64,000 bases of DNA, taken from Dehalococcoidia bacterium. GTDB taxonomy: Bacteria; Chloroflexota; Dehalococcoidia; GIF9; UBA5629. Below the pieces are notes generated by a model. It worked only from the letters and a program-made list of their open reading frames with translations, did not search any database and was not told the DNA's origin. Location of the stretch: NCBI GenBank assembly GCA_003142375.1, contig PLME01000004.1, positions 131,060 to 195,059 on the forward strand, given 5' to 3'. This document shows, one piece after another, positions 37,767 through 59,105 of this stretch. The translations under genes were made by a program, and so were the position numbers. Position 1 is the first letter of the stretch; each line of letters begins with the position of its first letter.

Positions 37767-37841
37767 GGCAGCGTAGCTCAGTGGTAGAGCAGGGGACTCA
37801 TAAGCCCTTGGTCACTAGTTCGAATCTAGTCGCTGCCACCA
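37767..37841 (+). tRNA. tRNA-Met (anticodon CAU), attachment-site tRNA
   Basis: All arms fold: acceptor GGCAGCG/CGCTGCC, D stem GCTC/GAGC, anticodon loop CTCATAA, T arm ACTAG-TTCGAAT-CTAGT and an encoded CCA. G1-C72 pairing favours elongator Met over initiator; tRNA-Ile2 cannot be excluded. The anticodon stem has a non-pair A31-G39. The last 46 bases (37796-37841) recur elsewhere in the window as integration scars. Confidence 0.9.
37796..37841 (+). repeat. 46-bp tRNA 3'-half repeat, copy 1 (inside the tRNA gene)
   Basis: The unit starts in the anticodon loop (ACTCATAAGCCC) and ends with CCA. It is repeated at 46343-46388 (one mismatch) and 48077-48122 (identical). A shorter copy is at 38878-38909. 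Confidence 0.9.
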
Positions 37842-37870
37842 AACCTCTTAAATCTTCCGCATTCCTTACA

Positions 37871-37905
37871 CGTCATTGCGAGGCGCATAGCGCCGTGACA
37901 ATTCG
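37871..37905. repeat. REP-like palindrome, copy 1
   Basis: CGTCATTGCGAGGCGC is followed by an inverted GCGCCGTGACAAT. A closely similar copy is at 48153-48187. Elements beginning GTCATTGCGAG are common dispersed palindromes in many genomes. Confidence 0.6.
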
Positions 37906-37972
37906 TATAATCGAAGAGACCATCATCCGAACAAGGATTCGTCAAAATCTAACAGGCTTATTTTGCTATCAC

Positions 37973-38032
37973 GTCAGGACAAGGGATTTCTATTTCTAAG
38001 GCTATTGAAGGCTTCTTATTAACCCTGCAAGG
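37973..38032 (+). repeat. 60-bp intergenic repeat Z, copy 1
   Basis: It shares ACAAGGGATT, TTTCTAAGGCTATTGAA and CCTGCAAGG, in the same order and spacing, with 54956-55013. Confidence 0.6.
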
Positions 38033-38092
38033 TGGTAGACAATACAATTGATAAAACATAAAATTGACGCATGAACGATCGGCGGATATTCC

Positions 38093-38800
38093 ATGCTTAA
38101 AATAATAGAACTATTACTATTGGTACTTATTTTGATGGCAATTTCATGTATGTATACGACTACATGCTATGCCAATTCAGCGGAGCCCCCATCAATATTG
38201 GTCATAGTTCCAAACTCGCCAGCCGACCTCGAAATTAGTATTGAAAATGTAAGAGCTAATAGAACTAATAAGGGTATCGAAAGCTATTACACCTTTTATC
38301 GTTATGATTTAAAATCCAACGATTATACTATGACGGTAACTACGGGTGGTAGATCATTTAAAGTTGTACCGGATACCCCGCTGCAGTTCTATAACAACGT
38401 GTTTACATTAGATTTAGAAAGGCAAACCCTGACCGCAGGTAAATCATTGTTTAGGTCTATCACCTTGGTATCCTTAAGGATAGTTTTAACACTTATACTA
38501 GAGGGTATTGTATTTTATCTCTTTGGTTTCAGAAGTAAAAGATCATGGCTTATTTTCCTAATTGTTAATTTGCTTACTCAAGGAATATTAAATATCTGGC
38601 TTAATACATTCATGCCTTTCAACGATTACATAATACTCTCCTTAATTTTTGGGGAAATACTGGTATTTATCATTGAGATGATTGCCTTTATGGTCATGGT
38701 AAAGGAGCATAGTCATTTACGGATTGGACTGTATGTGGTGGTGGCAAATCTGTTAAGCCTGATTGCGGGAGGCTATTTAATTACGTTGGTACCTATATAG
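38093..38800 (+). CDS. membrane protein with N-terminal signal and about five helices
   Basis: The 235-residue protein begins with a hydrophobic signal or anchor (residues 5-25, with Cys at 19). An exported domain of about 90 residues follows, rich in Asn and Thr (FYRYDLKSNDYTMTVTTGG). Four or five membrane helices complete it (about 125-232). The function is unknown and no family recognised. It is the only gene between tRNA repeat copies 1 and 2, so it is cargo of the first island segment. Its codons are AT-rich, unlike the hydrogenase region. Confidence 0.65.
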   Translation: MLKIIELLLLVLILMAISCMYTTTCYANSAEPPSILVIVPNSPADLEISIENVRANRTNKGIESYYTFYRYDLKSNDYTMTVTTGGRSFKVVPDTPLQFYNNVFTLDLERQTLTAGKSLFRSITLVSLRIVLTLILEGIVFYLFGFRSKRSWLIFLIVNLLTQGILNIWLNTFMPFNDYIILSLIFGEILVFIIEMIAFMVMVKEHSHLRIGLYVVVANLLSLIAGGYLITLVPI

Positions 38801-38877
38801 CATGCGCCAATTTAGGTTCATTGATATTGTTATTCAATCACCCATATTAATGTTAAAGCCTAGTATCGCAGGTCCCT

Positions 38878-38909
38878 GGTCACTAGTTCGAATCTAGTCG
38901 CTGCCACCA
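38878..38909 (+). repeat. tRNA 3'-end repeat, copy 2 (32 bp)
   Basis: Identity to the tRNA runs from GGTCACTAG to the final CCA. The anticodon-loop part is not preserved. The following 160 bases hold no convincing gene; a short stop-bounded frame ending near 39029 may be a gene relic. Confidence 0.85.
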
Positions 38910-39071
38910 AACTTTTTATTGCACCAGTCATTGAACAGGGGATTGGTCAATAGTCACTTGAATACGTCTTGATAAGGAAATGGTAAAGGAAGCTTCGGAA
39001 GGCGTGGCAAAGGTGGTAATGGAGGAATAGAGGTTTGGGCTGGGAAGTGCATGCCATACGCTCTTCGTTGC

Positions 39072-39266
39072 TCATGGTTTTACCATTTTCTTTTTGTATA
39101 AATAGGCTATGGCACTTGTCACCCAAGCAATTGTCAATCCGACACCGACTCCACGGATATAGTGGTTATCTATAAGATACCCCACCACAATGAATACCAC
39201 GCTCAGAACCAATTCGAATACTATCAGCGTCGTATCCAACCGATTCAAAATGCTTTTTCTCCACAT
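39072..39266 (-). CDS. small membrane protein, two helices
   Basis: The 64-residue protein has two hydrophobic helices (about 13-31 and 36-56) and a basic end (YKKKMVKP). A good ribosome site (AGAGGTG) lies before ATG 39266. No family is recognised. Confidence 0.6.
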   Translation of the reverse strand: MWRKSILNRLDTTLIVFELVLSVVFIVVGYLIDNHYIRGVGVGLTIAWVTSAIAYLYKKKMVKP

Positions 39267-39544
39267 GCTTTTTCACCTCTTTATCATAATGTTCTGCCAC
39301 TACTTAGATACCCTGTCCTTAGGGCGGGGTTCTTTATTTAGGCAACCTCTTAATCGAGGCTTCACCTTTTTCGATAGCTAGAATGAACCAGTGCCAGAAT
39401 ATATATGTCTATATCCCCACTGACCCCAAGCCAGAGCATTACGTAGGGTATTATACAACTAAACTTATATCCACGGTCCTATTGATCTTCTCCTAATTCG
39501 AGACTATCCTCTCACGCACTCTAACGAGAATAAGGAGAGGTTCA

Positions 39545-40495
39545 ATGTCTACAAAAGCAAAAGTTACTACAATCAAGCAAGCCATTGATAGCTTCCTGCT
39601 ATCCTGTAAGGTAGAGGGTAAATCCTTTGGCACAATTGAGTGCTATTCGGATAAACTAAAAGGCTTTCTGTGGTACGCCACCAATTACCACTGGCCCGAT
39701 GATATCCAGTTAATAACTACTGATCATCTGAGGCAATTCTTAGCCTATCTAAGGGAGACTCCACATAGGTTCAATAGTACCTGCCCACGAGCCATGAAGC
39801 CTATCAACTCTACCACCGTTCAGAAGTATTACCGGGCATTATCTGCCTTGTTTAATTGGTTAATACGTGAAGAATTGCTGACATATAACCCATTAATCAA
39901 GATCAAAGTACCTAAAGCTGAGAAGAAAGTAGTTAAAGCTCTGTCGTATGCTGAAGTTAATCAAATTGTATCCACATTTGGTAATCGGTTCGAAGATAAG
40001 CGTAATAAGGCGATCATACTGGTCTTGGTGGACTGTGGCTTAAGGTTAGGAGAGTTGCTCAATATAAAAATGGCTGATGTAAATATGCAGCAACAATTAC
40101 TTAAAGTTGATGGCAAAACCGGAGAACGCGTGGTAAGGTTCGGATTGACTACAGCTAAAGCATTACTGAAGTACATGATGGCAAGACAGGTATTGAATGG
40201 ACATAGTGACCAGTTATGGATAATCAGGGAAGGTACTGGCTTGAAAGATTCAAGTGTTGAGACTTTATTTATCAAGCTGTCGAAGAAAACAGGCATACCA
40301 GTACATCCACATTTATTGAGGCATACATTTGCTACTTTGTGGCTAAAGAATGGTGGTGATAGCTTGATGCTGCAAAGGTTACTTGGACATACAACATTGA
40401 TGATGACGAATAGGTATTGCCAGGCAGTGGGTTGTTATGATGCGGTGGAGGCACACAAGAAGTTTAGTCCGGTGGATAACTTCAAGTCTAGTTAA
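39545..40495 (+). CDS. tyrosine recombinase / phage-type integrase
   Basis: The protein is 316 residues. The N-terminal SAM-like core-binding domain (residues 8-110) includes IDSFLLSCKVEGKSFGTI. The catalytic domain has Arg in CGLRLGELLNI, Lys in VDGKTGERVV, HLLRHTF, LLGHTTLMMTNRY with the second His and the nucleophile Tyr. All the catalytic residues are present. About 26 residues follow the Tyr. The start has AAGGAGAGG before ATG. It probably acts at the tRNA(CAU) 1.7 kb upstream, whose 3' half is repeated in the island. Confidence 0.95.
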   Translation: MSTKAKVTTIKQAIDSFLLSCKVEGKSFGTIECYSDKLKGFLWYATNYHWPDDIQLITTDHLRQFLAYLRETPHRFNSTCPRAMKPINSTTVQKYYRALSALFNWLIREELLTYNPLIKIKVPKAEKKVVKALSYAEVNQIVSTFGNRFEDKRNKAIILVLVDCGLRLGELLNIKMADVNMQQQLLKVDGKTGERVVRFGLTTAKALLKYMMARQVLNGHSDQLWIIREGTGLKDSSVETLFIKLSKKTGIPVHPHLLRHTFATLWLKNGGDSLMLQRLLGHTTLMMTNRYCQAVGCYDAVEAHKKFSPVDNFKSS

Positions 40496-40619
40496 ATACA
40501 ATGCTTCATCTTTTTTGGGGAAGCTGTACTGTCCACTGCCAAATAGTGAACATAATATAGAAAAGGGTATAATTATTGTGGCTAGGTCATACTGAAATGA
40601 AAATGAAAAGGAAAGGCAT

Positions 40620-40958
40620 ATGGTAGAACACGAAGAACCCAGAGACCGCAGAATACACGGAGAACACGGAGAACGAGAGCCACATAGGTGGCCACCTGGA
40701 AAAGGCACTCCAAGCTATGAAGCCTCACACGAGGTTTACCTTACCAAGGACTTCGGATCAGAAAGGGAGGGAGACCTGATAGCTTTTATCAACAAGCACA
40801 TCACTGAGTTTAAAGGGAAGACTGAGGATAAGCAAGGCATCCCTCTAATGCTTTTTGAGAGGCAGCAAGACGCTCACAATTTTGCTAATGAGATCAGTGC
40901 CAGACTTAATATAAGCAAAGAACACATAACAGTTAAGGCACGGAAATATACACGCTAG
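40620..40958 (+). CDS. hypothetical protein
   Basis: The 112-residue frame has a charged, repetitive N-terminus (EHGEREPHRWPPGKG) and a more regular C-terminal half (DLIAFINKHI, then HNFANEISARLNISKEHITVKARKY), which looks like a small alpha/beta domain. AAAGGAAAGG lies before ATG. No family was recognised. It follows the recombinase on the same strand. Confidence 0.5.
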   Translation: MVEHEEPRDRRIHGEHGEREPHRWPPGKGTPSYEASHEVYLTKDFGSEREGDLIAFINKHITEFKGKTEDKQGIPLMLFERQQDAHNFANEISARLNISKEHITVKARKYTR

Positions 40959-40980
40959 CATATTTAAGCTTAGAAATACG

Positions 40981-41195
40981 AAATTCTGAGAGAGTCATTC
41001 ACAATATCCGCCATGCTGAATTTTTCTAAATTCTTAACCGGGATATATATTCAAATAGTAACCATATTAACCTTAGTGCCAGTGGGATGGATACCTGGTC
41101 AGGGCTATATAAAAACTGGTTCTTTTTGGTGAAATACTCCGTGTATTTATGAAGAATCTGAGGATAGATTTAGGGATGCGATGGATTGGGCGTAC
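40981..41195 (+). repeat. intergenic composite repeat XY, copy 1 (gap 40959-41260)
   Basis: The X part (40981-41050: GAAATTCTG, CATTCAC, TTTTTCTAAATTCTTAACC) and Y part (41110-41195: CTGGTTCTTTTT, GTGAAATAC, GGGATGCGATGGATTGGGC) recur at 43.65-43.96 kb and, for X, at 46.1 kb. No gene is seen in this gap. Confidence 0.6.
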
Positions 41196-41260
41196 CGGTC
41201 TATAGGTAGTCAGAAATGCCTTATAAATATGTGAAATTTTGAGAGAGCTATCCTCTAACG

Positions 41261-41476
41261 TTATTTGCCCCAAATCTTAGCATATAGAGGGATCGATATC
41301 ACCAGAGCTACAACAAGAAATATCCACCATGTCCATATTGGCAACCATATTGCCAGCAGCAAACCTATTGCCACTCCAGCAAGAAACTTGACCGTTATAA
41401 ATAGTATCAGGTGACATTTTGATAACTGTCTTAACTTTTCTATCCCTTTATCATACCAACTGACAATACCCGTCAT
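41261..41476 (-). CDS. small membrane protein, two helices
   Basis: The 71-residue protein has two hydrophobic helices (about 23-43 and 46-66, the second Trp-rich: WLPIWTWWIF) and a basic N-terminus (DKGIEKLRQLSK). GGAGGT is well placed before ATG 41476. The function is unknown. Confidence 0.6.
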   Translation of the reverse strand: MTGIVSWYDKGIEKLRQLSKCHLILFITVKFLAGVAIGLLLAIWLPIWTWWIFLVVALVISIPLYAKIWGK

Positions 41477-41516
41477 AGTATTTACCTCCTGTCTCAGTTA
41501 CGAAATCATGATAGCA

Positions 41517-41565
41517 CAGATGCGGTAGAGGCACATAGGAGGTTTAGTCCGGTGGATGGCTTGGC
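41517..41565 (+). pseudogene. recombinase 3'-end scar b
   Basis: The sequence matches the end of the recombinase gene (D-A-V-E-A-H-R-R-F-S-P-V-D-G) but no catalytic part is left. The frame continues to a TAG nine codons on. Confidence 0.85.
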
Positions 41566-41734
41566 GAAATACCTATATTAGTCCAGTTATTGGAATATGC
41601 CTATTTGTTCCCCAATCTTAAGTCAAATTTAGGAATTGTCAGTTTCATATCAGGTATTTATAAGTCAGCCGTCAAGTATAACCAAAACTACTCCTCTATA
41701 CTAAGCATAAAGTAATATCGAGAGGAGGTTAAAG

Positions 41735-42127
41735 TTGAAAAACAAATCCCTTATTGTTTTACTGACATTAGCGCTATTAACAATAGTTGTGGCCACAGGT
41801 TGCAGTTCCTCGTACGTAACCAGGGAGCAGTTCACGGCTTTACAAAATCAGGTCAATTCACTCAGCAACTCACTCAATTCAGCTCAGCAACAACTGGCGT
41901 CAACTCAGCAACAACTGTCTTCAACTCAGCAACAACTGTCTTCAGCCCAGCAGTCGCTCTCTCAAGCGCAATCCAAGCTGCAGCAGCAGAATACGTATGG
42001 TACCTATGCGCAACCGTCATATCAACCTAATATTATCTATCGAACCTATCCATACGGATATCAAAGCTATCCATATGGTTATCAAACCTATCCCTACGGA
42101 TATCGATACTATCCATACGGATATTGA
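41735..42127 (+). CDS. coiled-coil lipoprotein with C-terminal Tyr/Gly repeats
   Basis: The 130-residue protein has a lipoprotein signal (VVATGCSS), then a coiled coil with four perfect 7-residue units of the type QQLSSTQ (residues about 45-80). A tail of about 30 residues has four copies of YPYGY. It resembles Lpp-like or surface-stalk lipoproteins, and the tail may bind to the wall or to itself. The TTG start (41735) has GAGGAGG before it. Both coding repeats are visible as near-identical DNA repeats. Confidence 0.75.
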   Translation: MKNKSLIVLLTLALLTIVVATGCSSSYVTREQFTALQNQVNSLSNSLNSAQQQLASTQQQLSSTQQQLSSAQQSLSQAQSKLQQQNTYGTYAQPSYQPNIIYRTYPYGYQSYPYGYQTYPYGYRYYPYGY

Positions 42128-42214
42128 ATTACAGAATCTAGTAAAAGTTAATATCGGTTAGGCTGTATATCCAATTATGTCATAATATTTTCACTCAAAT
42201 TCTGTAACACGCAC

Positions 42215-42721
42215 ATGAAACAACTCATACGAATAGGTGTTTCGAGTTTTTTTATCGTGGCCTTGACTTTAAGTTGTCAATCACCTGTTCCGACGGATAT
42301 TCCAAACGAGCAATACCCGGCGGACATCAGTGGGCGTGTTATCATGGCTGAGTTTCTGTCAGAACAGGGGTCAATTTACAGGCCTCCTAATGACGAGACT
42401 TTCTGGGTCGTAGACATCACTTTCACCAATAAGGCGTATGAGCTACCAGATATTAGCGGTTACGACCACTGGAATATCGTGGTTGGGGATAAGTATTATT
42501 GGATACCAGAGTTGTTGAAGCAGGATAGACTGCCGCTTCTTAACGTCCCTGCAAACCAAACTGAGAAAAAAATAGTGTGCTTCCAAGTTCCCAGCAGTTT
42601 GAAGGTAGGAGATGCTAGACTGGCATATCAGGCTCAAAAACTAGTCTCTTTTGGGCGGTTGACTGGTGATGGGAAAGTGGCTGGGTATGATTGGGGTTCG
42701 AGAACGGCGGTCAATAAATAG
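42215..42721 (+). CDS. lipoprotein, function unknown
   Basis: The 168-residue protein has a lipoprotein signal (LTLSCQS, Cys near residue 21) and one compact beta-rich domain with WVVDITFTNKAYELPDIS, resembling DUF4352-type immunoglobulin-like domains. No enzyme motif is seen. It follows the coiled-coil lipoprotein on the same strand after 87 bases. Confidence 0.65.
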   Translation: MKQLIRIGVSSFFIVALTLSCQSPVPTDIPNEQYPADISGRVIMAEFLSEQGSIYRPPNDETFWVVDITFTNKAYELPDISGYDHWNIVVGDKYYWIPELLKQDRLPLLNVPANQTEKKIVCFQVPSSLKVGDARLAYQAQKLVSFGRLTGDGKVAGYDWGSRTAVNK

Positions 42722-42825
42722 GAAATGCCGATGCTAAGAACGCTCATATTGTTAACCTTGGTCTAGCTGGTAGTGCCCATGCCCGATCAGGGTAAGATTA
42801 AAGTTGCACATGCTACAATGAAATA

Positions 42826-43212
42826 ATGAGACCAATACTAATCAAAGTTGTCTGGGGAGTCTTTGCAGTCCTCGTGGCGCTTTTCATATTCGCACTGACT
42901 CCATTCAGGGAGCAGTTCGGACGTTTTGAAGTATTTCCTGGCATTCCGCTAATTGTACTGGGCCTCATGTTGGTGGTCTTGGCCGCCACACTAAACATGA
43001 AGACCCTCCTCAAGTGTTTTCTGGTAGTTGCTGGAGCTTCGGCCATCGGGTGGCCCTCCAGCCTCTTCCTGCACAATTTTCTTTATTATTACTACCCTAC
43101 TGAGCCAATAACTTATATTCTCTTTTTCCTTGTTTTTCCGCTTTCCTTCGCAATTGGCTCTACAGGTTCAATAGTCGTCGGCTTAATATCGTTGTTACAT
43201 CGCAATATATAG
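42826..43212 (+). CDS. membrane protein, four helices
   Basis: The 128-residue protein has four hydrophobic helices (about 7-26, 39-58, 62-83 and 95-124). There is no recognised family. It is the last of three plus-strand genes in this segment. Confidence 0.6.
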   Translation: MRPILIKVVWGVFAVLVALFIFALTPFREQFGRFEVFPGIPLIVLGLMLVVLAATLNMKTLLKCFLVVAGASAIGWPSSLFLHNFLYYYYPTEPITYILFFLVFPLSFAIGSTGSIVVGLISLLHRNI

Positions 43213-43354
43213 GTAATTTACGACTGCTTAGACTTACGATAATTGGGCGTAGTGCGCATGGCGCCACTCAACATAAGAACACAATTATTGATATTCGATC
43301 TGAGTAATACAAACTTTGAATTCAATTGGAAGAGATTACAGTCATCTGAACACG

Positions 43355-43501
43355 CTACTTTTTTGTCTGTTTCTTGATTGTTTTAAGCTGTTTGTCTTTT
43401 CTTGCTTTTCTTCCATCCGGATTTCGAATTGTTCCCTTTGGCAAACCATGTTTTTTCTCGATGCTCCCAACAGTTATATCACTACGATCTTTACGTGGCA
43501 T
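43355..43501 (-). CDS. small basic protein, 48 residues
   Basis: Reading the minus strand gives MPRKDRSDITVGSIEKKHGL, then PKGTIRNPDGRKARKDKQLK and a Lys-rich end. GGGAGGT lies before the ATG. About one third of residues are Lys or Arg. The sequence reads like a real folded motif (a DITVGSIEKK-GLPKGTIRNPDGRxAR pattern) and might bind nucleic acid. The family is not recognised. Confidence 0.55.
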   Translation of the reverse strand: MPRKDRSDITVGSIEKKHGLPKGTIRNPDGRKARKDKQLKTIKKQTKK

Positions 43502-43583
43502 GTAATCAACCTCCCATTTTTGATCGTATTAAATATAGATTATCATGATATGCTTGTCAATTAATTGTCTATGTACTAACACG

Positions 43584-43633
43584 ATATAATGCAGTAGAGG
43601 CACATAAGAGGTTTAGTCCGGTAGATGGATTGA
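43584..43633 (+). pseudogene. recombinase 3'-end scar c
   Basis: It encodes N-A-V-E-A-H-K-R-F-S-P-V-D-G-L-R and a stop. It matches the end of the intact recombinase with replacements. Nothing of the catalytic domain remains. Confidence 0.85.
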
Positions 43634-43649
43634 GGTAATGGGCGGTTGG

Positions 43650-43960
43650 ACGGATTTTAGGATTGGTTCTTTTTAGTGAGATACCCCGTTTATATACGAG
43701 GAATCTTGAGACGGAATAAGGGATGCAAGGGATTGGGCAGGGAAATAGGGCATGGATAAAAAAGTGCGATTATTAATGAGGAAATTCAGGGAATAGGCAA
43801 ATCTGCAAATTCTGCATGACTCATTCATCATTCCACATGGTCGTAACCTTTCTAACTTTTCACGGCGGTATCAATATTGGGATTGAGGTTATGGAAATAG
43901 GCTAGAATGATATAAGAGCTGGTTCTTTTTACTGAGATTCATCGGTAATTAAAGGTGCAA
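43650..43960 (+). repeat. composite repeats Y2, X2 and Y3 (gap 43634-43992)
   Basis: Y2 (43650-43740), X2 (43806-43875) and Y3 (43911-43950) match the XY repeat at 41.0-41.2 kb, sharing GGTTCTTTTT and TTTCTAACTTTT segments. No gene is seen in this gap. Confidence 0.55.
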
Positions 43961-43992
43961 CTGAAGACGTATTAAGTGTAGTAGCCATGACT

Positions 43993-44430
43993 TCATGTGA
44001 CAGTTGAGATCTCTATAACCTTGCGTTCAAAAGTTCTGATATCTTCTTCCGAAGGCACATTTCTGAGATTTGGGTGATCAGCTTCTATACCCTTAAGTTC
44101 CATTAGGCAAGTGATCTTTTTCCCATCATGTGGATCAAAATAGAAACACTGCCCTCCATTGCTCACCAGAGGACAATCATCCCATCGCCATGCAGATGAT
44201 ACTCCAAACATTGCCGTTCCATCTTTCCGTGGTCTTGTTTTGATTTCGCCTGTGGCAATTTGTCCTATCAACTCTTCATTCGGTAAATTCAAGTAGATTA
44301 GGAGGTCTTGAGTACTCAGCCACTTCTGCTCTACTAAGTCTGCTCGTTTTCTGTAATTGTCAACTAATACCCTACATTTGTTTAGAGTAGGAATATAATG
44401 CTTACAGTTATAACCAAAATGATATTCCAT
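43993..44430 (-). CDS. hypothetical Cys-containing protein
   Basis: The 145-residue protein has two Cys-His groups: CKHYIPTLNKC near the start and CPLVSNGGQCFYF with a later C. Part of it (WLSTQDLLIYLNLPNEELIGQIATGEIKTRPRKDG) resembles an excisionase-like helix-turn-helix. Zinc or iron-sulfur binding is possible. It follows the exonuclease gene by 26 bases on the same strand, so the two are probably one operon. Confidence 0.6.
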   Translation of the reverse strand: MEYHFGYNCKHYIPTLNKCRVLVDNYRKRADLVEQKWLSTQDLLIYLNLPNEELIGQIATGEIKTRPRKDGTAMFGVSSAWRWDDCPLVSNGGQCFYFDPHDGKKITCLMELKGIEADHPNLRNVPSEEDIRTFERKVIEISTVT

Positions 44431-44456
44431 TCTGACCTCCTCTGCGCGTAGCAGGA

Positions 44457-45314
44457 TTAGTATTCCAAATCAACCAGATGCTTAAAATCAGTTTCTTGGA
44501 GAATACGTATTTGTTGGCCTTGCATTATCAATGATTCAGCCTTCCTATGCTTTAAACTTTTTTCGTGACCCGCTAACCGTCTAATATCTTGATTCCCGAC
44601 AACCAATATGGTTGTGTCTTTATTAACTCCAGTTTGCACATTACAGCCTATTCTGGCTGCCATTTCTGCTGCTTCCCTCCTTGGTATTTCTAAAGCTCCT
44701 GTAAATACCAAGTTGTTACCATATAAACAACCTTCCGGATTCCCCTCGGATTTAATATCTTGAATATGGTTTGGGTCAATTGGTTGTTTTACCCTTTGAA
44801 GCCAACCATCTATACCTAACCCGCTCCGTTCCATAGCAGCTAAGAATATGACTGCTGCTGCCTTGGCATCTTCTAAAGCATCATGACATTCGAACTCATA
44901 ACCAATATCTTTACATATGTTTGCCAATCCATAACCAGACCAAGCAAATTTTTCCCATGTTCTTCGGGCAACCCTTGCTGAGTCTAGCCATATGGGTTCA
45001 GGGTGACGAAGATTATATTTATCAAAAGCTTGATTTATTGATACACGGTCAAAATGAGTGTGACTAATAACAACGTTGTTATCGAGATAATGATATATTT
45101 CCCCAGATAATTCATTTAATTTTGGGGCACTTTGTACTGTGGACTCATCAATGCCATGAATGGAAATATTAATCGGACTAAAGAAATCTTCTGGATCAAC
45201 ATAGGTTTTCCACTCTTCAGATAAATTCCCGTTTGTATATCTAACTACTCCAATTTGGCATATTGATGAACAGTCAGGATTTGCAGTCTCGACATCAATG
45301 GCAACAAATTCCAT
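44457..45314 (-). CDS. DnaQ-like 3'-5' exonuclease with C-terminal BRCT domain
   Basis: Residues 1-170 are a DEDDh exonuclease: VAIDVETAN (D, E), THFDRVSINQAF (D), and HDALEDAKAAA (H and D). Residues about 195-280 are a BRCT-like domain starting LVFTGALEIPRREAAEMAARIG and VNKDTTILVVG. Proteins with this layout are related to DNA polymerase III epsilon and act in DNA repair or RNA turnover. It is part of a minus-strand group with a Zn-ribbon protein and a Cys-containing protein inside the island, so it is accessory cargo. Confidence 0.85.
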   Translation of the reverse strand: MEFVAIDVETANPDCSSICQIGVVRYTNGNLSEEWKTYVDPEDFFSPINISIHGIDESTVQSAPKLNELSGEIYHYLDNNVVISHTHFDRVSINQAFDKYNLRHPEPIWLDSARVARRTWEKFAWSGYGLANICKDIGYEFECHDALEDAKAAAVIFLAAMERSGLGIDGWLQRVKQPIDPNHIQDIKSEGNPEGCLYGNNLVFTGALEIPRREAAEMAARIGCNVQTGVNKDTTILVVGNQDIRRLAGHEKSLKHRKAESLIMQGQQIRILQETDFKHLVDLEY

Positions 45315-45513
45315 CTCATGCTTCCTTCTTCAGAATAAAATCTCAAAATCCTAATCTGCTTGTTCCTTGGTCTGCGCGGCTTTACTTAATTGATGCAAGT
45401 TCTCGGTCAACGGTCTCATTCCAATGTAAGGTTTGTTTAAGATTGCCTATCAGCCCATTTATCCAAGATTTTCTTGGTTCAGTATTGAAATATATTTCCA
45501 TTGCATTCCAGAC

Positions 45514-46011
45514 TTAATCTCCCTTTCGCGGAATTGCATTATAGCTACCAGACACCTGATAGATAAGAACGCTAGAACGCTGATTTCTGGGATGAACGAA
45601 GTTTACACCGGCACAGATATGAGTTTTACAGTTTCCCCATTCATTATGTATTTTCAAAAGGATGTCATTTTGTAGCCTTAAAAGGTCTTCTTGGTTTGCT
45701 ACACAAAGTGTTGATATCCTGCCATTTGTTGTAATAGCAGGTATCAAGATAGAAGAATGTCCTCCTAAATTCCAACCTACTAATCGTTTATCACGAGGGT
45801 CAAGAGATAAAAGATGCAAAGACGGTTCTTGTAACTGTGTTGTAGGCCAGGGAAACATAGCACCGCACTTTGTGCAATTCATGAATTGTGTATCGGCTAT
45901 AGCACCACATGTAGGACAGCTATATTGGAATTGTGATTGGCAGTTCCAGCAACAGAGTTGCCCCATATTGTTTTGTGCACCGCATCTGTAACACTGAAAT
46001 GTTTGTTGCAT
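45514..46011 (-). CDS. double zinc-ribbon protein
   Basis: The first 50 residues hold four CxxC pairs (CYRCGAQ, CCWNCQS, CPTCGAI, CTKCGAM), which make two zinc ribbons. The rest (about 60-165) is a domain with SLDPRDKRLVGWNLGG, unfamiliar to me. It is upstream of the exonuclease/BRCT gene on the same strand with a 199-base gap that holds no clear gene. Confidence 0.7.
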   Translation of the reverse strand: MQQTFQCYRCGAQNNMGQLCCWNCQSQFQYSCPTCGAIADTQFMNCTKCGAMFPWPTTQLQEPSLHLLSLDPRDKRLVGWNLGGHSSILIPAITTNGRISTLCVANQEDLLRLQNDILLKIHNEWGNCKTHICAGVNFVHPRNQRSSVLIYQVSGSYNAIPRKGD

Positions 46012-46102
46012 TAAACAACCTCACGACAGCGCCAATATTCTATTGTATCCGTATTGCTAAAACAACACCACTTGTAGGGAGCATTAATAAGCTCGCAGTT
46101 CT

Positions 46103-46205
46103 CGAAATTCTGCCAGACTCGTTCAATATTCCGCACGTTCCCATTTTTTCTAACTTTTCAACCTGGCTACCTATAGGTGGGCTATATATTATAAAAACGC
46201 CATCC
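46103..46205 (+). repeat. composite repeat X3 (gap 46012-46523)
   Basis: It shares GAAATTCTG, GTTCAATATTCCGCA, TTTTTTCTAACTTTTCAACC and GGGCTATATAT with 40981-41115. The remainder of the gap holds tRNA repeat copy 3 and no gene. Confidence 0.55.
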
Positions 46206-46342
46206 TCACCTTAACTACGTTCCTCTTGACCTTAGCCCCTCGGCCTATTATAGTTAAGCTGCCTTAACCAGTTGGCACAAACTGGATTATATATTGAAGA
46301 AAATAGAAGAATATGACGGTATCAATTTTGATAGAGACTGGA

Positions 46343-46388
46343 ACTCATAAGCCCTTGGTCACTAGTTCAAATCTAGTCGCTGCCACCA
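46343..46388 (+). repeat. 46-bp tRNA 3'-half repeat, copy 3
   Basis: Identical to 37796-37841 except one base (TTCAAAT for TTCGAAT in the T loop). Preceding sequence is not tRNA, so this is an integration scar and not a gene. Confidence 0.95.
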
Positions 46389-46523
46389 TTCCTCTTCAAT
46401 CTCCTTTAGCCAACCAAGGGATTCATCAAAAACATCAGACTTATTTAGCTACCGAGCCGGACAAATGGATCTCCATTGAAATGCAAACTGGAAAGCAAAT
46501 CTAATAATAATGCTATTCTGCCC

Positions 46524-47960
46524 CTATTTAACCATTTGTATTGCCGGGGGTACCCATGACTTGTCCATCACCGACTTTTGGGGCCAGTACAGACGCAGCG
46601 TCAGTGAAAAGCTACCGCTGGCCGGAGTGGGTAACCAGTTGGGCATCTTGGCAGAGTCAGGTGAATCGCGCTGTATGTAGATGTCAATCGAGCCGTCGGG
46701 ATTCTTCAACAGAGGCGGGTCACTTAATGAGCCCAGACAGTATCTATTGATCGGGTTGGCTGCAAACAGGATTTTTTCATTGTACATGGAAAGCGACCAG
46801 AAGCCGTTTACAGGCGGTATGCCATCCTTGTCGAAATGAATTACATATTTGTTAGTGCTCGAAAACTTGGCTCCATCGCCGCTGGTTGCTGCTGAGGCAT
46901 AGAAAGCGTCATCAATTAGATTAGCCCCCAGCCCCCGATAAGCTATAGCTGCTCTCAGCGTGTAGTCAGTCCCGTAATTGCCGGTATCGTAAGAGAGTTG
47001 CCACCCATTCTTGACAGCACCCATTCCTTCTGCAGGAATTCCAGTCAGAGCGGACTGATAGCCGGTTTGGATTGCCGACTTAATTCCATTGTCCAGCCCC
47101 GCAAAATATGACTTATAGTCAACTCCAGCCCTGATGCCAATCTTTGCCATCCTATCCAGCGCCGGCGCATCTGCTGGATAAGGTGGGCTTTCAATCATCA
47201 ACTGGCAGACATAGTTGAAATAGCTGGCTGCATCCAGAGCCAGCAACTGGTTCAGAGGCGAAACCCTGGTATTGACATTAGGATCGACCGGAACATTAGC
47301 CGGCGGCACATAATTGGTGCCCCAGGCAGAGAGCGGCGTCAGCTTCAGCTGGTCCTGAAGTTTCGAGACGTTCTGGTAGTCGGAAGGACCCGTACAGGCG
47401 ATGCGACCGACTATCCAGACCCATCTGGTCGAAGATTTCATTTCTGTGAAGCCTTCAGGTAATTTGCCACTCCAATTCGGGCCAGTGATGGCAAAATTAC
47501 CAGATCCGGTACCGGTAGTGCGTGAGCCAGGCGAGGCAAAAGAGTCCGTCCAGTAGTTAAGCATAGGCATCAGGTAGTAGCGGCCCTGAGTGTCTGGCAG
47601 AGAAATGATAATAGGTTCTTTCCCGGTATCAACCCAGGCTGATGAATAAAGCGTGTCAGCATTTGGGTTTACTACATTAACAAAAGTCGCATCAGGAAAC
47701 ACCTTCTTACTGCCGAATTGGTTGGCTGGCGACCCATACGCATTAGGTGCGGGGACTGCGGTAAAGACCTGCCGGGTGAGGTCCATAATGACTAGCGGGA
47801 AGCCGTATACCGCGGCATCATAAGCGATTTGCTGGGCTTCCTGAGGGCTACTATTTTGCTGCGCTGTATTCGTCGTGGAGGCGCATCCAGTAGCTAAAGT
47901 ACACAATATGATCAGTAAAACGATGAGAATTAGAAACCTATGCAGAATTATATTTTTCAT
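46524..47960 (-). CDS. DUF1254/DUF1214-domain lipoprotein
   Basis: A lipoprotein signal (lipobox ATGCAS) is followed by a DUF1254 domain (QQIAYDAAVYGFPLVIMDLTRQ, NPNADTLYSSAWVDTG) and a C-terminal DUF1214 domain (DKDGIPPVNGFWSLSMYNE, FAANPINRYCLG). The function is unknown. Such proteins are widespread, often as single genes. It is the only gene between tRNA repeat copies 3 and 4, so it is the cargo of one island segment. Confidence 0.85.
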   Translation of the reverse strand: MKNIILHRFLILIVLLIILCTLATGCASTTNTAQQNSSPQEAQQIAYDAAVYGFPLVIMDLTRQVFTAVPAPNAYGSPANQFGSKKVFPDATFVNVVNPNADTLYSSAWVDTGKEPIIISLPDTQGRYYLMPMLNYWTDSFASPGSRTTGTGSGNFAITGPNWSGKLPEGFTEMKSSTRWVWIVGRIACTGPSDYQNVSKLQDQLKLTPLSAWGTNYVPPANVPVDPNVNTRVSPLNQLLALDAASYFNYVCQLMIESPPYPADAPALDRMAKIGIRAGVDYKSYFAGLDNGIKSAIQTGYQSALTGIPAEGMGAVKNGWQLSYDTGNYGTDYTLRAAIAYRGLGANLIDDAFYASAATSGDGAKFSSTNKYVIHFDKDGIPPVNGFWSLSMYNEKILFAANPINRYCLGSLSDPPLLKNPDGSIDIYIQRDSPDSAKMPNWLPTPASGSFSLTLRLYWPQKSVMDKSWVPPAIQMVK

Positions 47961-48076
47961 ATGATTCCATTACCTTTTCACTACACTAGTTTCCAAGCAA
48001 TTATACTACGACTCCGCAATATTTCACCTTTCCCAGGGAGATGAAATCTGCAACGATATCAAAAGCTGAACTTGGC

Positions 48077-48122
48077 ACTCATAAGCCCTTGGTCACTAGT
48101 TCGAATCTAGTCGCTGCCACCA
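48077..48122 (+). repeat. 46-bp tRNA 3'-half repeat, copy 4
   Basis: Identical over 46 bases to the end of the tRNA gene. The following 100 bases also match the sequence after the tRNA (CCTCTTAAATC, then GTCATTGCGAGGCGC). Confidence 0.95.
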
Positions 48123-48152
48123 CTCCTCTTAAATCCTCCCTGTCCCTTATCA

Positions 48153-48187
48153 CGTCATTGCGAGGCGCATGGCGCCGTGGCAATCTC
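48153..48187. repeat. REP-like palindrome, copy 2
   Basis: Same element as 37871-37905 with base changes in the loop and one arm. Confidence 0.6.
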
Positions 48188-48246
48188 TATAAGCGAAGGA
48201 ATCGATTCGAACCAAGGGACTGTTTAAAACCAACAGGCTCATTTAG

Positions 48247-48314
48247 CTGTGGGATGCTATGATGTGGTGGGAGCACATAAGAGATTTAGCCCGGTGGATG
48301 GGATAAAGGGGTAG
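48247..48314 (+). pseudogene. recombinase 3'-end scar d
   Basis: It encodes A-V-G-C-Y-D-V-V-G-A-H-K-R-F-S-P-V-D-G-I-K-G and stop. It matches the recombinase C-terminus. It is directly downstream of tRNA repeat copy 4, with about 125 bases between. Confidence 0.85.
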
Positions 48315-48357: not shown

Positions 48358-49302
48358 TTACACTTTACTACCTATGTAACTTTGCCAAATATCATCAAGG
48401 AGATTTTCAGGAGGAGATGGCGGCATTGGTATTGCTGGACGTATAAGTAGTATGGGTTGTGATGATTCCTCCACAATCCTGTTTGCCACGCTACCGTACA
48501 CCCTGCGACTAACCCCAGCGCGTCCTTGGGTAGCAATAACTATCAGGTCAATATTCTCTTCTTTGGATACGTGCATGATGGTTTTTACAACTTCTCCGGT
48601 TTGAGCTTTTACGACCCTTGATTTTACCTTCATTCCTTTTTTCTTTAGTGCAGCCATTGTCTTATTGAGATAAGTTGTTGATAATTTTTCCATCTCTCCC
48701 CACATATTGTCCTGGTATTTCTTCCAGGTCGGGTTAATAGGGCGTGAGCCGTACGATGGTACGATCGGTGGTTCGCAGATATGGAGGAGTAAGATTTCCT
48801 TATTAGTCTTCTTAGTTAATTCCTCAACATAAGGAAAAACAGATTCGGAGAAAGAAGAGCCATCAACAGGAATTAATATCCTGTTGAATTCCGCTGAAAC
48901 TTCACGAGATTTTGATTTTATTAAAAGGACGGGAATTTCGGTGCCATAGAGGACTTTCTGGGCTATACTTCCAAACATCCACTGTTTAGCCTTTGAATAA
49001 CCGTGTGTGGCCATGACAACCAAGTCTATTTTGTTATTATTTGCGTATTTAACTATTTCTTCTGCCACGTCACCATAGCTTGTAGCCGTGGTAGTTTTTA
49101 TTCCTTCTGTATTGAGTTCTTTAGCATTAACTTCCAGATAGGATGAGAAAAGGCGGTCACGTCTATCAACGAAAATGGTCAAACTAACAGCAAAAAGTAT
49201 CACCTGGCTTTTTTTAAGCTTTGCTATACTTTTAGCGTATGGGAGAGCTTTTTCGGCTAGCTCAGAGCCGCTCAAAGGAACTAGTATTTTTTTATATGCC
49301 AT
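48358..49302 (-). CDS. universal stress protein, two tandem UspA domains
   Basis: Domain 1 (residues 1-150) begins YKKILVPLSGSELAEKAL and ends VVMATHGYSKAKQWMFGSIAQKVL. Domain 2 (155-300) begins FNRILIPVDGSSFSE and ends IVIATQGRAGVSRRVYGSVANRIV, with an ATP-binding GxxGxxxxxxxGS motif. These proteins aid stress survival and some bind ATP. It is flanked by two recombinase scars (d and e), so it lies in a cassette-like position. Confidence 0.9.
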   Translation of the reverse strand: MAYKKILVPLSGSELAEKALPYAKSIAKLKKSQVILFAVSLTIFVDRRDRLFSSYLEVNAKELNTEGIKTTTATSYGDVAEEIVKYANNNKIDLVVMATHGYSKAKQWMFGSIAQKVLYGTEIPVLLIKSKSREVSAEFNRILIPVDGSSFSESVFPYVEELTKKTNKEILLLHICEPPIVPSYGSRPINPTWKKYQDNMWGEMEKLSTTYLNKTMAALKKKGMKVKSRVVKAQTGEVVKTIMHVSKEENIDLIVIATQGRAGVSRRVYGSVANRIVEESSQPILLIRPAIPMPPSPPENLLDDIWQSYIGSKV

Positions 49303-49389
49303 GGCTACTCCTTTCTGGTATAAAATTAATTATATTCTAATATACCTGTGGTGACAATGCTCATTCACCTAGCAGTGGATTCTTTAACC

Positions 49390-49602
49390 GCAAAACAATG
49401 GGCAGGAATAGCGGTACATCCACACTTATTGAGGCATACATTTGCTATGTTGTGGTTGAAGAATAGTAGAGATAGCTTAATGCTTCAAAGATTATTGGGA
49501 CATACAACGCTTATGATGACGAATAGGTATTGCCAAGCAGTAGGGTGCTATGATGCAGTGGAAGCACATAAGACATTTAGCCCGGTTGATAACATTAAAT
49601 AG
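49390..49602 (+). pseudogene. recombinase 3' fragment e (keeps catalytic H-R-H-Y)
   Basis: About 70 residues match the end of the intact recombinase: VHPHLLRHTFAMLWLKN, then LLGHTTLMMTNRYCQAVG and the usual end VDNIK. The N-terminal domain and the first catalytic Arg and Lys are missing. The frame stays open to a stop. This is the longest of the five scars and is most like the intact gene. Confidence 0.9.
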
Positions 49603-55263: not shown

Positions 55264-55398
55264 TAGTACCGGTAATACGAATTGGAACACGCCGGCAACC
55301 CAATTCACTCTTGGTTTTTTTCGGAAATTTCATTGTACTATCAATGAAATTTCACCGCGAAAATATCCTTGGAGGTAATTTGGCATGAGGAGGATGAA

Positions 55399-56871
55399 AT
55401 GCTGAAAAAGGATGAAATGAAAAAGAAACTGACCACCGCCGCCGGCGCCCCTGTCGTAGACAATCAAAACACGATGACTGCCGGTCCCAGAGGCCCCGCG
55501 CTCTTACAGGATATCTGGTTCCTGGAAAAACTCGGCCATTTTGACCGTGAGGTTATACCGGAACGGCGCATGCACGCTAAGGGTTCTGGCGCCTATGGTA
55601 CATTTACAGTTACTCACAATGTTACCCGCTATACCAAAGCCAAAATCTTTTCCAAGGTGGGTAAAAAGACCGACCTCTTCATTCGCTTTTCGACCGTGGC
55701 TGGTGAACGTGGCGCTGCCGATGCCGAACGTGATATCCGTGGCTTCGCCATGAAGTTCTATACCGATGAAGGCAACTGGGACCTGGTGGGCAACAATACG
55801 CCCGTATTCTTCCTGCGCGACCCGCTCAAATTTCCTGACCTCAATCACGCTGTTAAGCGGGACCCGCGTACCAACTTGAGAAGCGCCAAAAACAACTGGG
55901 ACTTCTGGACTTCGCTTCCGGAAGCACTGCACCAGGTCACCATCGTCATGAGCGACCGCGGTATCCCTTATTCTTTCCGCCATATGCATGGCTTCGGCAG
56001 CCACACCTTCAGCCTTATCAATGCTAAAAATGAAAGGTTTTGGGTTAAGTTTCACCTGAAAACACAACAGGGTATTCGCAACCTGACTGATGCAGAAGCT
56101 GAAGCGATCATAGGTAAGGACCGCGAAAGCAACCAGCGTGACCTGTATCAAAGTATCGAAAAGGGCGATTATCCACGCTGGACTATGTATTTCCAGATAA
56201 TGCCGGAAAAAGAGGCTGCTAAATGCCCCTATAATCCCTTTGATCTGACTAAGGTCTGGTTCCACAAGGATTATCCTTTGATGGAAGTGGGCGTGCTTGA
56301 ACTCAACCGCAACCCCGAAAACTACTTTGCCGAAGTGGAACAGGCAGCTTTCAATCCGGCCAATATCGTTCCGGGTATCGGTTTCTCTCCTGATAAGATG
56401 CTGCAGGGCAGGCTTTTCTCCTATGGCGATGCTCAACGTTACCGCCTGGGAGTCAATCATCACTTGATCCCGGTCAATGCCCCGCGCTGCCCGGTTCATA
56501 GCTATCACCGCGATGGCACCATGCGGGTTGACGGCAATTATGGCAGTACGCTGGCTTACGAACCAAACAGCTATGGTGAGTGGCAGGAACAGCCCTCTTT
56601 TGCCGAGCCACCTCTTGGCTTGAAAGGCGCCGCTGACCACTGGAATTTTCGTGAGGATGATGATGATTACTTTACTCAGCCGGGCCTCCTCTTCCGCCTA
56701 ATGAGCCCCAAGCAGAAGGCGGTACTCTTTGCAAATACCGCTCGAGCTATAGGCGATGCGCCCCAGGAAGTCAAAATCAGACATATTGGCAACTGCCTGA
56801 AGGCCGACAAGGCTTATGGCCACGGTGTCGCTCAAGCGCTGGGTATTCCTCTTAGTAAAGTCCCAAAATAA
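55399..56871 (+). CDS. katA: catalase (monofunctional haem)
   Basis: The protein breaks hydrogen peroxide to water and oxygen. Haem-site residues are intact: the distal His in [13 protein letters not shown], the distal Asn in [12 protein letters not shown], and the proximal Tyr in [15 protein letters not shown]. The start ATG 55399 has GAGGAGG 5 bases before it. At 490 residues it is of the small-subunit (clade 3) type. It stands before a methyltransferase and a 5TM protein. A catalase is unusual cargo for an anaerobe and suggests oxygen exposure. Confidence 0.95.
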
Positions 56872-56945
56872 GGATAGTGTTTAACTTCTATAGCCTGATG
56901 ATAAAAGGAATGAGGCTCGTTTCTTAGCGATTCAAGGGGGCTGCA

Positions 56946-57533
56946 ATGACACTGGCTGACAAATTGCTTCATCGGCAGGGCACCTGTCCCTGGTGGGTTT
57001 GCTTCACTTTCGATAACCCAATGCGCAGAAAGCTGCAAAACCCTGAGAAGATACTACAGGGCCTGGTGAAGGAAGGGCAAACTGTCTATGACATAGGTTG
57101 CGGCATGGGATATTTCTCCCTGACGCTGGCGCGCATGGTGGGCAAGGCGGGAACAGTGATATGCGTAGATCTGCAGAAGGAGATGCTGTCGGCAGCCGGG
57201 CGCAGGGCGGAACGGGCCGGCCTTGATGACCGGATCAGGTTGAAACAATGCAGTCCACAAAGCCTTGAATTGGACGGTATTGCAGATTTCGCACTGGCAT
57301 TCTGGATGGTGCATGAGGTACCCGACAAGCAGCGGTTCCTGGGTGAGATAAATCGAGCACTCAAGCCGGGCGGGACCCTGCTGCTGGTTGAGCCGACAAT
57401 ATTAAACCACGTGACCAGACAGGGCTTTAATGCCACTGTCGCAACTGCGCGGTCTGTCGGGTTTGAAGTAGTGGGAGAACCGAATGTGCGATTTAGCATG
57501 GCAGTGCTCTTGAGAGCGACAACACCTTCGTAG
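56946..57533 (+). CDS. class I SAM-dependent methyltransferase
   Basis: The protein has SAM motif I in VYDIGCGMGYFSLTLARMVG, then VICVDLQKEMLSAA and later LLLVEPT. At 195 residues it is a small single-domain enzyme. The substrate is not evident. It follows catalase after 75 bases on the same strand. Confidence 0.85.
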   Translation: MTLADKLLHRQGTCPWWVCFTFDNPMRRKLQNPEKILQGLVKEGQTVYDIGCGMGYFSLTLARMVGKAGTVICVDLQKEMLSAAGRRAERAGLDDRIRLKQCSPQSLELDGIADFALAFWMVHEVPDKQRFLGEINRALKPGGTLLLVEPTILNHVTRQGFNATVATARSVGFEVVGEPNVRFSMAVLLRATTPS

Positions 57534-57534
57534 C

Positions 57535-57660
57535 ATGCGGGCAAATCCATTTATAAAACAAATTGATGAACAGGCGCTTGAATTATGTTCTTTGCTCAGA
57601 GAAAAACCTAAAAATTTCATTGATAAATTCAGACCATCGGCCACCGGTGCCAGCAACTAG
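57535..57660 (+). CDS. possible small protein, 41 residues
   Basis: The ATG lies one base after the methyltransferase stop codon. The product starts MRANPFIKQIDEQALEL and looks helical. No ribosome site is seen, but translational coupling is possible. Weakly supported. Confidence 0.3.
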   Translation: MRANPFIKQIDEQALELCSLLREKPKNFIDKFRPSATGASN

Positions 57661-57758
57661 GCCCCGGTTTCACTAACGTCGTTGCATCGATAGTAAAAGG
57701 AGTAGTAGAATGACGGCTGCTCCGAGAGCCGGACTCACCTTAATCAGGACATAAGAAA

Positions 57759-58418
57759 GTGATACACAATATTTTAGCCCTATTTGCAACAACAGAAGTA
57801 TTTATATATGTCTTCGTAGAGCTCATTGTTCACATTGAATCCGTCCGGAGGGTGCTTTCCAGGATAGCCAGCCGTTATGACAAAATTTTTTTCATGTCAA
57901 TTTTTGGTGCATTTTCTATATTTGGCACCTACACCGGCATTGAGTTGCCCGGGGGAGCAATAAGCAGCATCAGGGATCTCGGTCCGATGGTGGCCGGACT
58001 GGTGGCCGGCCCTGTGGTCGGCCTGGGGGCCGGGTTGATCGGTGGTATACAGCGCTATTTTCTTGGCGGATTTACCGCCGTTCCGTGCGGACTGGCCACC
58101 GTCCTAGCCGGTTTGATCGGCGGCATAGTTTACCTTATCAATAAGAAGAAGCTGGTAGGAATCTTTTTTGCCATATTTGCGGCCGTCTTCGTCGAAGTTA
58201 TCCATGGCGCACTGGCGCTTTTAATCGCCCGGCCGTTTGACGATGCTTTTGAGGTTGTCCGTACGGCTATTCCCGCCATGATGGTAGCCAACGGTATGGG
58301 AGCTGCCATAAGTATTATCGTCCTGGAACGTGCATTAAAGGAGCTTAAAACGGGCAAGCCAGCAGAAGGGCCAAATAAAACCGTCAACGATATTGAAAGC
58401 GGAGACATCGAGTCATAA
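57759..58418 (+). CDS. stand-alone 5TM-5TMR (LytS/YhcK-type) membrane domain protein
   Basis: The 219-residue protein is almost wholly the five-helix receptor domain seen in LytS kinases and YhcK-type GGDEF proteins. The key segment is VRRVLSRIASRYDKIFFMSIFGAFSIFGTYTGIELPGGAISSIRD, then GGIQRYFLGGFTAVPCGLATVLAGLIGG. No kinase, GGDEF or other output domain follows; only a charged tail ends it. The start is GTG 57759. A 14-codon reading frame with AAAAGGAG lies at 57710-57754 just upstream. Confidence 0.75.
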   Translation: MIHNILALFATTEVFIYVFVELIVHIESVRRVLSRIASRYDKIFFMSIFGAFSIFGTYTGIELPGGAISSIRDLGPMVAGLVAGPVVGLGAGLIGGIQRYFLGGFTAVPCGLATVLAGLIGGIVYLINKKKLVGIFFAIFAAVFVEVIHGALALLIARPFDDAFEVVRTAIPAMMVANGMGAAISIIVLERALKELKTGKPAEGPNKTVNDIESGDIES

Positions 58419-58423
58419 GACAT

Positions 58424-58454
58424 GGGCATGGGTTCAATCCCAGCCACCTCCACC
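58424..58454 (+). repeat. decayed tRNA 3'-end relic, different tRNA
   Basis: GGGTTCAATCCC (T arm), CACCTCC and CCA suggest the 3' end of a tRNA, but the T stem is broken and no 5' part exists. The sequence downstream (CAAGGGATCCGTCAGAATC) resembles that following the tRNA(CAU) repeats. Confidence 0.4.
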
Positions 58455-58536
58455 AATCCTCCTAAAATCCCCATATCCCGACAAGGGATCCGTCAGAATC
58501 ATAAATACCGCTTCAGAGCTATTATGCCATCTCAAA

Positions 58537-58995: not shown

Positions 58996-59032
58996 TGGCT
59001 ATAGTCTAGTATATTCTGGAAGATTTGAAAAT

Positions 59033-59105
59033 TGCTGTCAGGCTGTGGGATGCTACGATTCAGTGGCGGCGCATAAGAGGTTTAGTCCGGTGGATGGATT
59101 GTGGA
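59033..59105 (+). pseudogene. recombinase 3'-end scar f
   Basis: It encodes C-Q-A-V-G-C-Y-D-S-V-A-A-H-K-R-F-S-P-V-D-G and then runs on open. It matches the recombinase C-terminus just after the catalytic Tyr. It is the rightmost scar seen. Confidence 0.85.

Follow-up and report, generated by a model that had tools for sequence, protein, structure and literature searches.

Stacked tRNA-Met halves in a Dehalococcoidia genome: probable remains of small elements whose integrase is split by its own attachment site

Introduction

What process leaves four copies of one half of a tRNA gene within little more than 10 kb, with different genes in every interval between them? The question is raised by a tRNA-Met locus (positions 37767 to 48122) in a 64,000-nucleotide stretch of the genome of a Dehalococcoidia bacterium (Chloroflexota; GenBank assembly GCA_003142375.1, contig PLME01000004.1, positions 131,060 to 195,059), referred to here as the window. 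A preliminary description of the locus proposed successive integrations of related elements at one attachment (att) site, the earlier ones being left as scars. Analysis of the window and its relatives suggests a more specific origin: the locus is probably a stack of small elements whose tyrosine integrase carries the att site within its own 5' coding region and is split on integration.

In the mechanism that we propose, the circular form of such an element would provide a promoter, a ribosome-binding site, a start codon and about 6 to 13 codons (the N-terminal part, int(N)), from which the reading frame would continue across the tRNA-derived att core and a linker to the remainder of the gene, int(C). 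Crossover in the anticodon loop would restore the tRNA, leave int(C) beside it without a start codon and move int(N) to the far end. The integrase would thereby silence itself, and the element would be trapped. As the restored tRNA would still be a target, elements would pile up with the newest nearest the tRNA; old elements would lose the integrase body, keeping both ends and one or a few cargo genes. Such stranded cassettes would move only with an integrase supplied in trans, for which the complete enzyme encoded at 39545 to 40495 is a candidate. We infer from the arrangement of the sequences where crossover occurs, that the integrase is switched off, that the element is trapped and that cassettes can be mobilised in trans.

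Results and Discussion

The tRNA-Met locus and its repeats

The putative target is tRNA-Met(CAT), located at 37767 to 37841 on the forward strand and the sole tRNA identified by ARAGORN in the window. Its terminal 46 bp, from the anticodon loop to CCA, constitute att copy 1 (37796 to 37841, restored inside the tRNA). As previously described, this half recurs on the same strand with one mismatch at 46343 to 46388 (copy 3) and identically at 48077 to 48122 (copy 4). A fourth, shorter copy also exists, although it comprises 33 bp at 38877 to 38909 (copy 2, forward strand) rather than the 32 bp at 38878 first reported; its 5' edge and int(N) have been lost. When the window was scanned on both strands with the 48-mer 37794 to 37841, matches were obtained at 48075 (one mismatch), 46341 (two) and 38862 (eight). 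The next best position had 21 mismatches, which excludes chance as the source of the repeats. The whole genome contains only these four copies of the tRNA-Met half. The copies start at the anticodon loop, none containing the 5' half of the tRNA, as expected if a tyrosine recombinase crosses over there. The locus is thus bounded by direct repeats of the 3' end of the tRNA and has an intact, restored tRNA, as in a tRNA-integrated genomic island.

Repeats of this kind might also arise by duplication of the locus, either through homologous recombination or through tandem duplication of the tRNA region. A precedent is found in G021 (locus L036, contig C55), where tRNA-Met and its upstream region are tandemly duplicated (2105 to 2179 and 2977 to 3055), the second copy being mutated and an integrase fragment lying between the two. 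Additionally, the short integrase 3' remnants described below could seed homologous recombination. However, the G021 duplication spans the whole tRNA plus the upstream region, whereas the window copies begin exactly at the anticodon loop and never with the 5' tRNA half. Given also the different cargo in each interval, the presence of an integrase and the exact empty site available for a related element (G016, below), we regard duplication as highly improbable.

Every copy, including that within the tRNA, is followed by a conserved linker. The roughly 100 bases noted earlier as common to the sequences after copies 1 and 4 are real, and resolve into this general linker plus a palindrome resembling repetitive extragenic palindromic (REP) sequences (GTCATTGCGAGGCGCATAGCGCC). 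The palindrome occupies the same linker position after copies 1 and 4 only (37869 to 37916 and 48151 to 48198). Similar palindromes occur shortly 3' of the tRNA half in relatives (loci L036, L039, L041, L043 and L088), and this spot in the linker seems to attract them. The preliminary description overlooked that the linker and the sequence preceding the copies both belong to an integrase gene; it also missed the complete tyrosine integrase at 39545 to 40495 and the integrase 3' remnants.

An integrase reading frame through the repeats

Translated in frame, the core reads THKPLVTSSNLVAAT and continues as ...EQGIHQN..AYLAT.SDQGISISKAIESFLL; this linker continuation corresponds to the beginning of the integrase domain, which reads TTIKQAIDSFLLSC in the window enzyme. 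Copy 1 is followed by an int(C) N-terminal remnant at 37842 to 38030 (linker ...EQGF..., ISISKAIEGFLL), the frame of which is broken by the palindrome at 37869 to 37916. Copy 3 is preceded by the int(N) of the unit to its left, consisting of an in-frame ATG and the codons MTVSILIETG (46313 to 46342), and is followed by a remnant int(C) linker (IPLQSPLANQGIHQKHQTYLAT, 46389 to 46480). Similarly, an ATG and 11 codons in frame with the core precede copy 4 (MKSATISKAELG, 48041 to 48076). The int(C) linker beyond it (48123 to 48242, including the second palindrome) is fused directly to a 3'-end remnant of the integrase at 48243 to 48310 through an internal deletion of the gene. All of these features lie on the forward strand.

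We then considered displaced tRNA-Met halves with an intact 5' edge across the compared genomes, all of which are draft or metagenome-assembled; the named records carrying the same half are metagenome-assembled genomes (MAGs) of Dehalococcoidia or Chloroflexi. An in-frame ATG within 20 codons, with the frame open to the core, was present in 10 of 19 such copies, while the other two frames yielded one and four. Shuffled sequences gave a mean of 3.5 copies with an in-frame ATG and attained 10 in 0.09% of trials (P 0.0009). Furthermore, the ATG lies exactly 13 codons upstream in 7 of the 19, representing several species and mostly with AGGAG-type sites. Were the copies independent, which they are not, the probability of this coincidence would be about 1e-8 by hand calculation. 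Several int(N) sequences are preceded by the promoter TTGACC-N16/17-TATATC or TATCGT, resembling that of the unsplit integrase.

An intact split element in tRNA-fMet

The most complete example of the arrangement is a 4.75-kb element inserted in the tRNA-fMet gene of G016 (locus L110, 14035 down to about 9284). In the integrated state, the integrase frame contains no stop codon and no ATG, GTG or TTG between the tRNA and the integrase domain. The distal repeat, conversely, is preceded by GGGAGGGAAAAGTAAA-ATG-TAT-TCT-GAA-TTG-G. Joining the ends of the element in silico (attR-left to attL-right) generates a single open reading frame (ORF) of 350 aa with the Shine-Dalgarno sequence GGGAGGG (MYSELAHNPKVAGSNPAPATNKRN...LRSLVDGFLLDRK...), which matches PF00589 and not PF16795. 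In this joined ORF attP lies within the integrase coding sequence, and in the integrated element the start codon and Shine-Dalgarno sequence are found at attR, apart from the catalytic portion. This is one intact case; the window possesses remnants only. An exact empty site is provided by G028, of the same genus, where tRNA-fMet is followed directly by the terminator-like sequence found to the right of the distal repeat in G016. The cargo of the G016 element comprises an excisionase-like helix-turn-helix gene, a PsbP-like lipoprotein gene and an IS3-type insertion.

Start-less integrases were also found at two other tRNA genes. In G014, an integrase frame continues from tRNA-Ala with no start codon; the right end of this element was not found, as the contig ends inside the integrase. 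In G006, a decayed integrase with one stop and one frameshift emerges from a tRNA-Val half, and neither a start nor a right end was found before the end of the contig.

Could these loci instead represent ordinary tRNA-targeting islets, stacked by accretion and equipped with a normal integrase start, the in-frame ATG being fortuitous or belonging to an unrelated leader ORF? Stacked elements and units without an integrase have been described at tRNA and tmRNA genes (PMC3146451). The complete integrase of the window has a start codon of its own, and so do most integrases next to tRNAs in the class. As controls, integrases adjacent to tRNA-Pro, Val, Gly, Lys, Ile, Ala and Arg in the order and the class were inspected. 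In nearly all cases the gene has its own start codon beyond the tRNA, usually with stop codons in between. A class-wide search for further start-less, tRNA-fused integrases revealed none outside the family to which the window belongs. Nevertheless, the integrases of G016 and G014 have no start codon after the tRNA, a joined ORF with a good ribosome-binding site such as that of G016 is hard to obtain by chance, and the 13-codon spacing recurs across several species. We therefore consider ordinary islets an unlikely explanation.

Several observations count against an integrase split by its own att site. Only the G016 element is intact at both ends, and no circular form was seen in the draft and metagenome-assembled genomes compared. 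An in-frame ATG is lacking in nine of the 19 displaced copies, some of which are related and hence not independent of one another. In the integrated state the frame extends without a stop back into and through the tRNA as far as a GTG or TTG, so that int(C) may not be silent. The pN/pS ratio (nonsynonymous to synonymous polymorphism) of the linker is 0.76 in frame compared with 0.83 and 0.73 in the other frames, giving no clear sign of constraint at the protein level. Finally, the tRNA-Met copies in the window are themselves remnants, to which a split origin is assigned by analogy.

The unsplit integrase and integrase phylogeny

The enzyme encoded at 39545 to 40495 (forward strand) is a complete, unsplit tyrosine integrase (type B) with its own start codon, a PF00589 domain containing the residues R, K, HxxRH, H and Y, and a SAM-like N-terminal domain. 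It aligns with XerA and XerD across the active-site motifs GLRLGEL, HLLRH, LLGH and NRY. Its best alignments are to Xer-type structures; IntI4 aligns only weakly. A probable promoter, TTGATC-17-TATCCT (39482 to 39510, forward strand), is conserved in relatives. A search of viral contigs for relatives of the integrase returned none.

A tree of 29 integrases placed three split enzymes and the unsplit window type (window, G262 and G020) in one clade with support of 95/92, all others falling outside. The enzyme at 39545 to 40495 is the sole complete member of this clade in its genome. The single clade makes the split arrangement look like one innovation. The window type, which has a promoter of its own but neither att site nor linker, may have descended from the split type by re-joining. 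The integrase of locus L166 (contig C250 of G262), from another family of the class, is 74% identical to the window enzyme and has the same promoter type, a likeness that we take as a sign of transfer between families.

Decayed integrase genes are scattered through the window. In addition to the remnant fused to the linker after copy 4, 3'-end remnants are present at 41515 to 41562 (DAVEAHRRFSPVDG) and 43585 to 43639, and a C-terminal fragment matching PF00589 at 49348 to 49602 (all forward strand). The 3' tails, of approximately 45 to 60 bp, have nearly the same 5' limit (at 41519, 43588, 48261, 49552 and 59057), and they often lie just after the start of a reverse-strand gene. Their common start near the catalytic Tyr region raised the possibility of a second attachment site. 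This was rejected; decayed genes are the more likely source because the tails match the integrase C-terminus at codon level and longer fragments exist (49348 to 49602, and in G001). Loss of the integrase body is indicated by two junctions, where the linker is joined to a 3' tail (48242/48243) and to the DUF1254 gene (at about 46480).

Stacking and probable cassette movement among relatives

The nearest relative compared, G001, belongs to the same genus as the window genome (G000), and the hydrogenase genes upstream of the locus are about 92% identical between them at the DNA level. In G001 a single tRNA copy and one linker are followed by the universal stress protein gene uspA, which in the window lies beyond copy 4 (48358 to 49302, reverse strand). 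The segment between copies 1 and 4, missing in G001, was either inserted in the window genome or deleted in G001. The preliminary description had called for an empty site in relatives. G001 goes part of the way, lacking units 1 to 3, but its retained linker means that the site is not fully empty. Three cargo ORFs (41735 to 42127, 42215 to 42721 and 42826 to 43212, forward strand) precede copy 3 in the window and follow uspA in G001, from which we conclude that units have been rearranged.

In G012, of another genus, about six copies form an array of less than 10 kb, each interval holding one gene or a few. A gene for a DUF1254/DUF1214 protein, at 46524 to 47960 on the reverse strand of the window, lies between or beside att copies in G000, G012 and G017. 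Its DNA identity is 91.5% between G000 and G012, 87.8% between G000 and G017 and 91.7% between G012 and G017, whereas the G000 hydrogenase genes share 83% identity with their counterparts in G012 and 82% with those in G017. To judge from these identities (88 to 92% versus 82 to 83%), the cassette has probably moved horizontally between genera. A 75% relative is found near tRNA-Met in G029. Taken together, the single copy followed by uspA in G001, the array in G012 and the cassette shared by several genera support the successive integrations at one tRNA site originally proposed. The pattern named at the outset as fatal to that proposal, namely all repeats at the same positions with syntenic cargo in relatives, was not encountered.

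Both the unit at 46343 to 48122 and units of the G012 array have att sites at both ends and no integrase gene, as in accretion of cis-mobilizable elements (CIMEs). If excised, the DUF1254 unit would form a 1,734-bp circle carrying only a 65-aa integrase stub, and would thus need help in trans. The term scar, applied to the earlier insertions in the preliminary description, is apt only in part, for the unit between copies 3 and 4 keeps both ends and could still be mobilised in trans.

Additional stacks of tRNA-Met halves were seen in other Chloroflexi MAGs, at loci L105 (VGOM01000042) and L107 (PCSL01000022). At L107, two copies 1.5 kb apart each have an in-frame start 13 codons upstream.

Integron cassettes likewise form arrays of small gene units beside a tyrosine recombinase. 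This likeness raises the possibility that the unsplit integrase at 39545 to 40495 drives an active gain and loss of cassettes, split elements being merely ancestors. The G012 array, with mostly one or two genes per unit, the different positions of the DUF1254 cassette in different genera, the complete catalytic residues of the unsplit enzyme and its 74% identical counterpart in another family would all fit. Conversely, no circular cassette was seen in the assemblies, and in G012 only fragments of the unsplit integrase gene remain; we hold this explanation to be possible but rather doubtful. Unlike integrons, the locus has tRNA halves in place of attC sites; no IntI-type integrase was found, and attC structure was not searched for. 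Returning to the self-splitting integrase, we advance a further proposal tentatively: a Chloroflexota clade might have evolved a self-switching-off gene independently of archaea, its trapped elements becoming cassette arrays mobilised in trans by the unsplit descendant (39545 to 40495), which would amount to a second, independent integron-like route.

Comparison with known systems

Elements stacked at one tRNA gene, lacking an integrase, bounded by attL and attR and mobilised in trans are familiar from the accretion of integrative and conjugative elements (ICEs) and CIMEs, and resemble this locus. To our knowledge, no split integrase gene has been described in ICE/CIME accretion. Cis-mobilizable elements have also been invoked for the islands at ssrA in Dehalococcoides (PMC3146451). 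These occur in a related bacterium and share with the window tandem islands at one RNA gene, integrase-less units, possible accretion and a recombinase gene overlapping attL. There, DsiB overlaps attL at its 3' end, and the authors asked whether full function of the enzyme might be confined to the circular form (McMurdie et al. 2011, PMC3146451). In contrast to the integrase described here, DsiB is a serine recombinase, its overlap is at the 3' end and the target is tmRNA.

Suicidal (SSV-type) integrases carry attP within the gene and, according to a 2021 review, have PF16795 in common and are confined to archaea (Badel et al. 2021, PMC8371274). As proposed here, SSV1, pTN3 and pT26-2 have an attP, often tRNA-derived, in an integrase gene that is split into int(N) and int(C); att sites of 40 to 50 bp and several elements in tandem at one locus are further common features (PMC8371274). 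However, the present host belongs to Chloroflexota and its enzyme has PF00589 and SAM-like domains, with no Phage_integr_3 (PF16795) domain. Given this difference in domains, the integrase would work like the archaeal suicidal enzymes without being a member of their family. Among bacteria, the integrases of Myxococcus phages Mx8 and Mx9 also have attP inside the coding sequence. Integration gives Mx8 int a new 3' end and the enzyme stays active (PMC6070905), whereas the att site described here lies in the 5' coding region, such that start codon and promoter would be removed, and is not of the 3'-end type of Mx8.

Searching the literature for split or disrupted integrase genes, within incomplete coverage of subscription journals, we found the arrangement described only for archaea. 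A self-splitting integrase in bacteria is likely, though not certain, to be new. Finding this switch to irreversible integration in bacteria, with an integrase of an unrelated family, would show that it evolved more than once, and a split integrase would explain the piles of stranded cassettes at tRNA genes in this family. A further question is whether a cassette-array system that depends on an unsplit relative acting in trans can evolve from a self-splitting integrase.

Other cargo and a second unit

The cargo genes of the window are small and mostly of obscure function, and include a lipoprotein-like ORF with YPYGY repeats. A 235-aa, probably membrane-anchored protein without a Pfam match is encoded at 38093 to 38800 (forward strand), and a 64-aa ORF lies between att copy 2 and the integrase (39072 to 39266, reverse strand). 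An exonuclease plus BRCT protein (RNase_T, BRCT; 44457 to 45314) and a zinc-ribbon protein (45514 to 46011) are both encoded on the reverse strand. The exonuclease domain was the sole match to PADLOC defence-system models.

A second, separate unit is located at 58421 to 59100 (forward strand), where half of another tRNA is followed by the same type of linker (GACAAGGGATCCGTCAGAATC). It contains a DUF1003 gene (58537 to 58995, reverse strand) and the integrase 3' remnant at 59057, and a GNAT gene lies beyond it. That GNAT gene is also present in G001, where it sits after a tRNA-Met half that is degenerate and has int(N). The second unit is immediately preceded (55369 to 58418) by genes for a catalase, a methyltransferase and a 5TM-5TMR_LYT protein, which lie 3' of a large sensor kinase gene.

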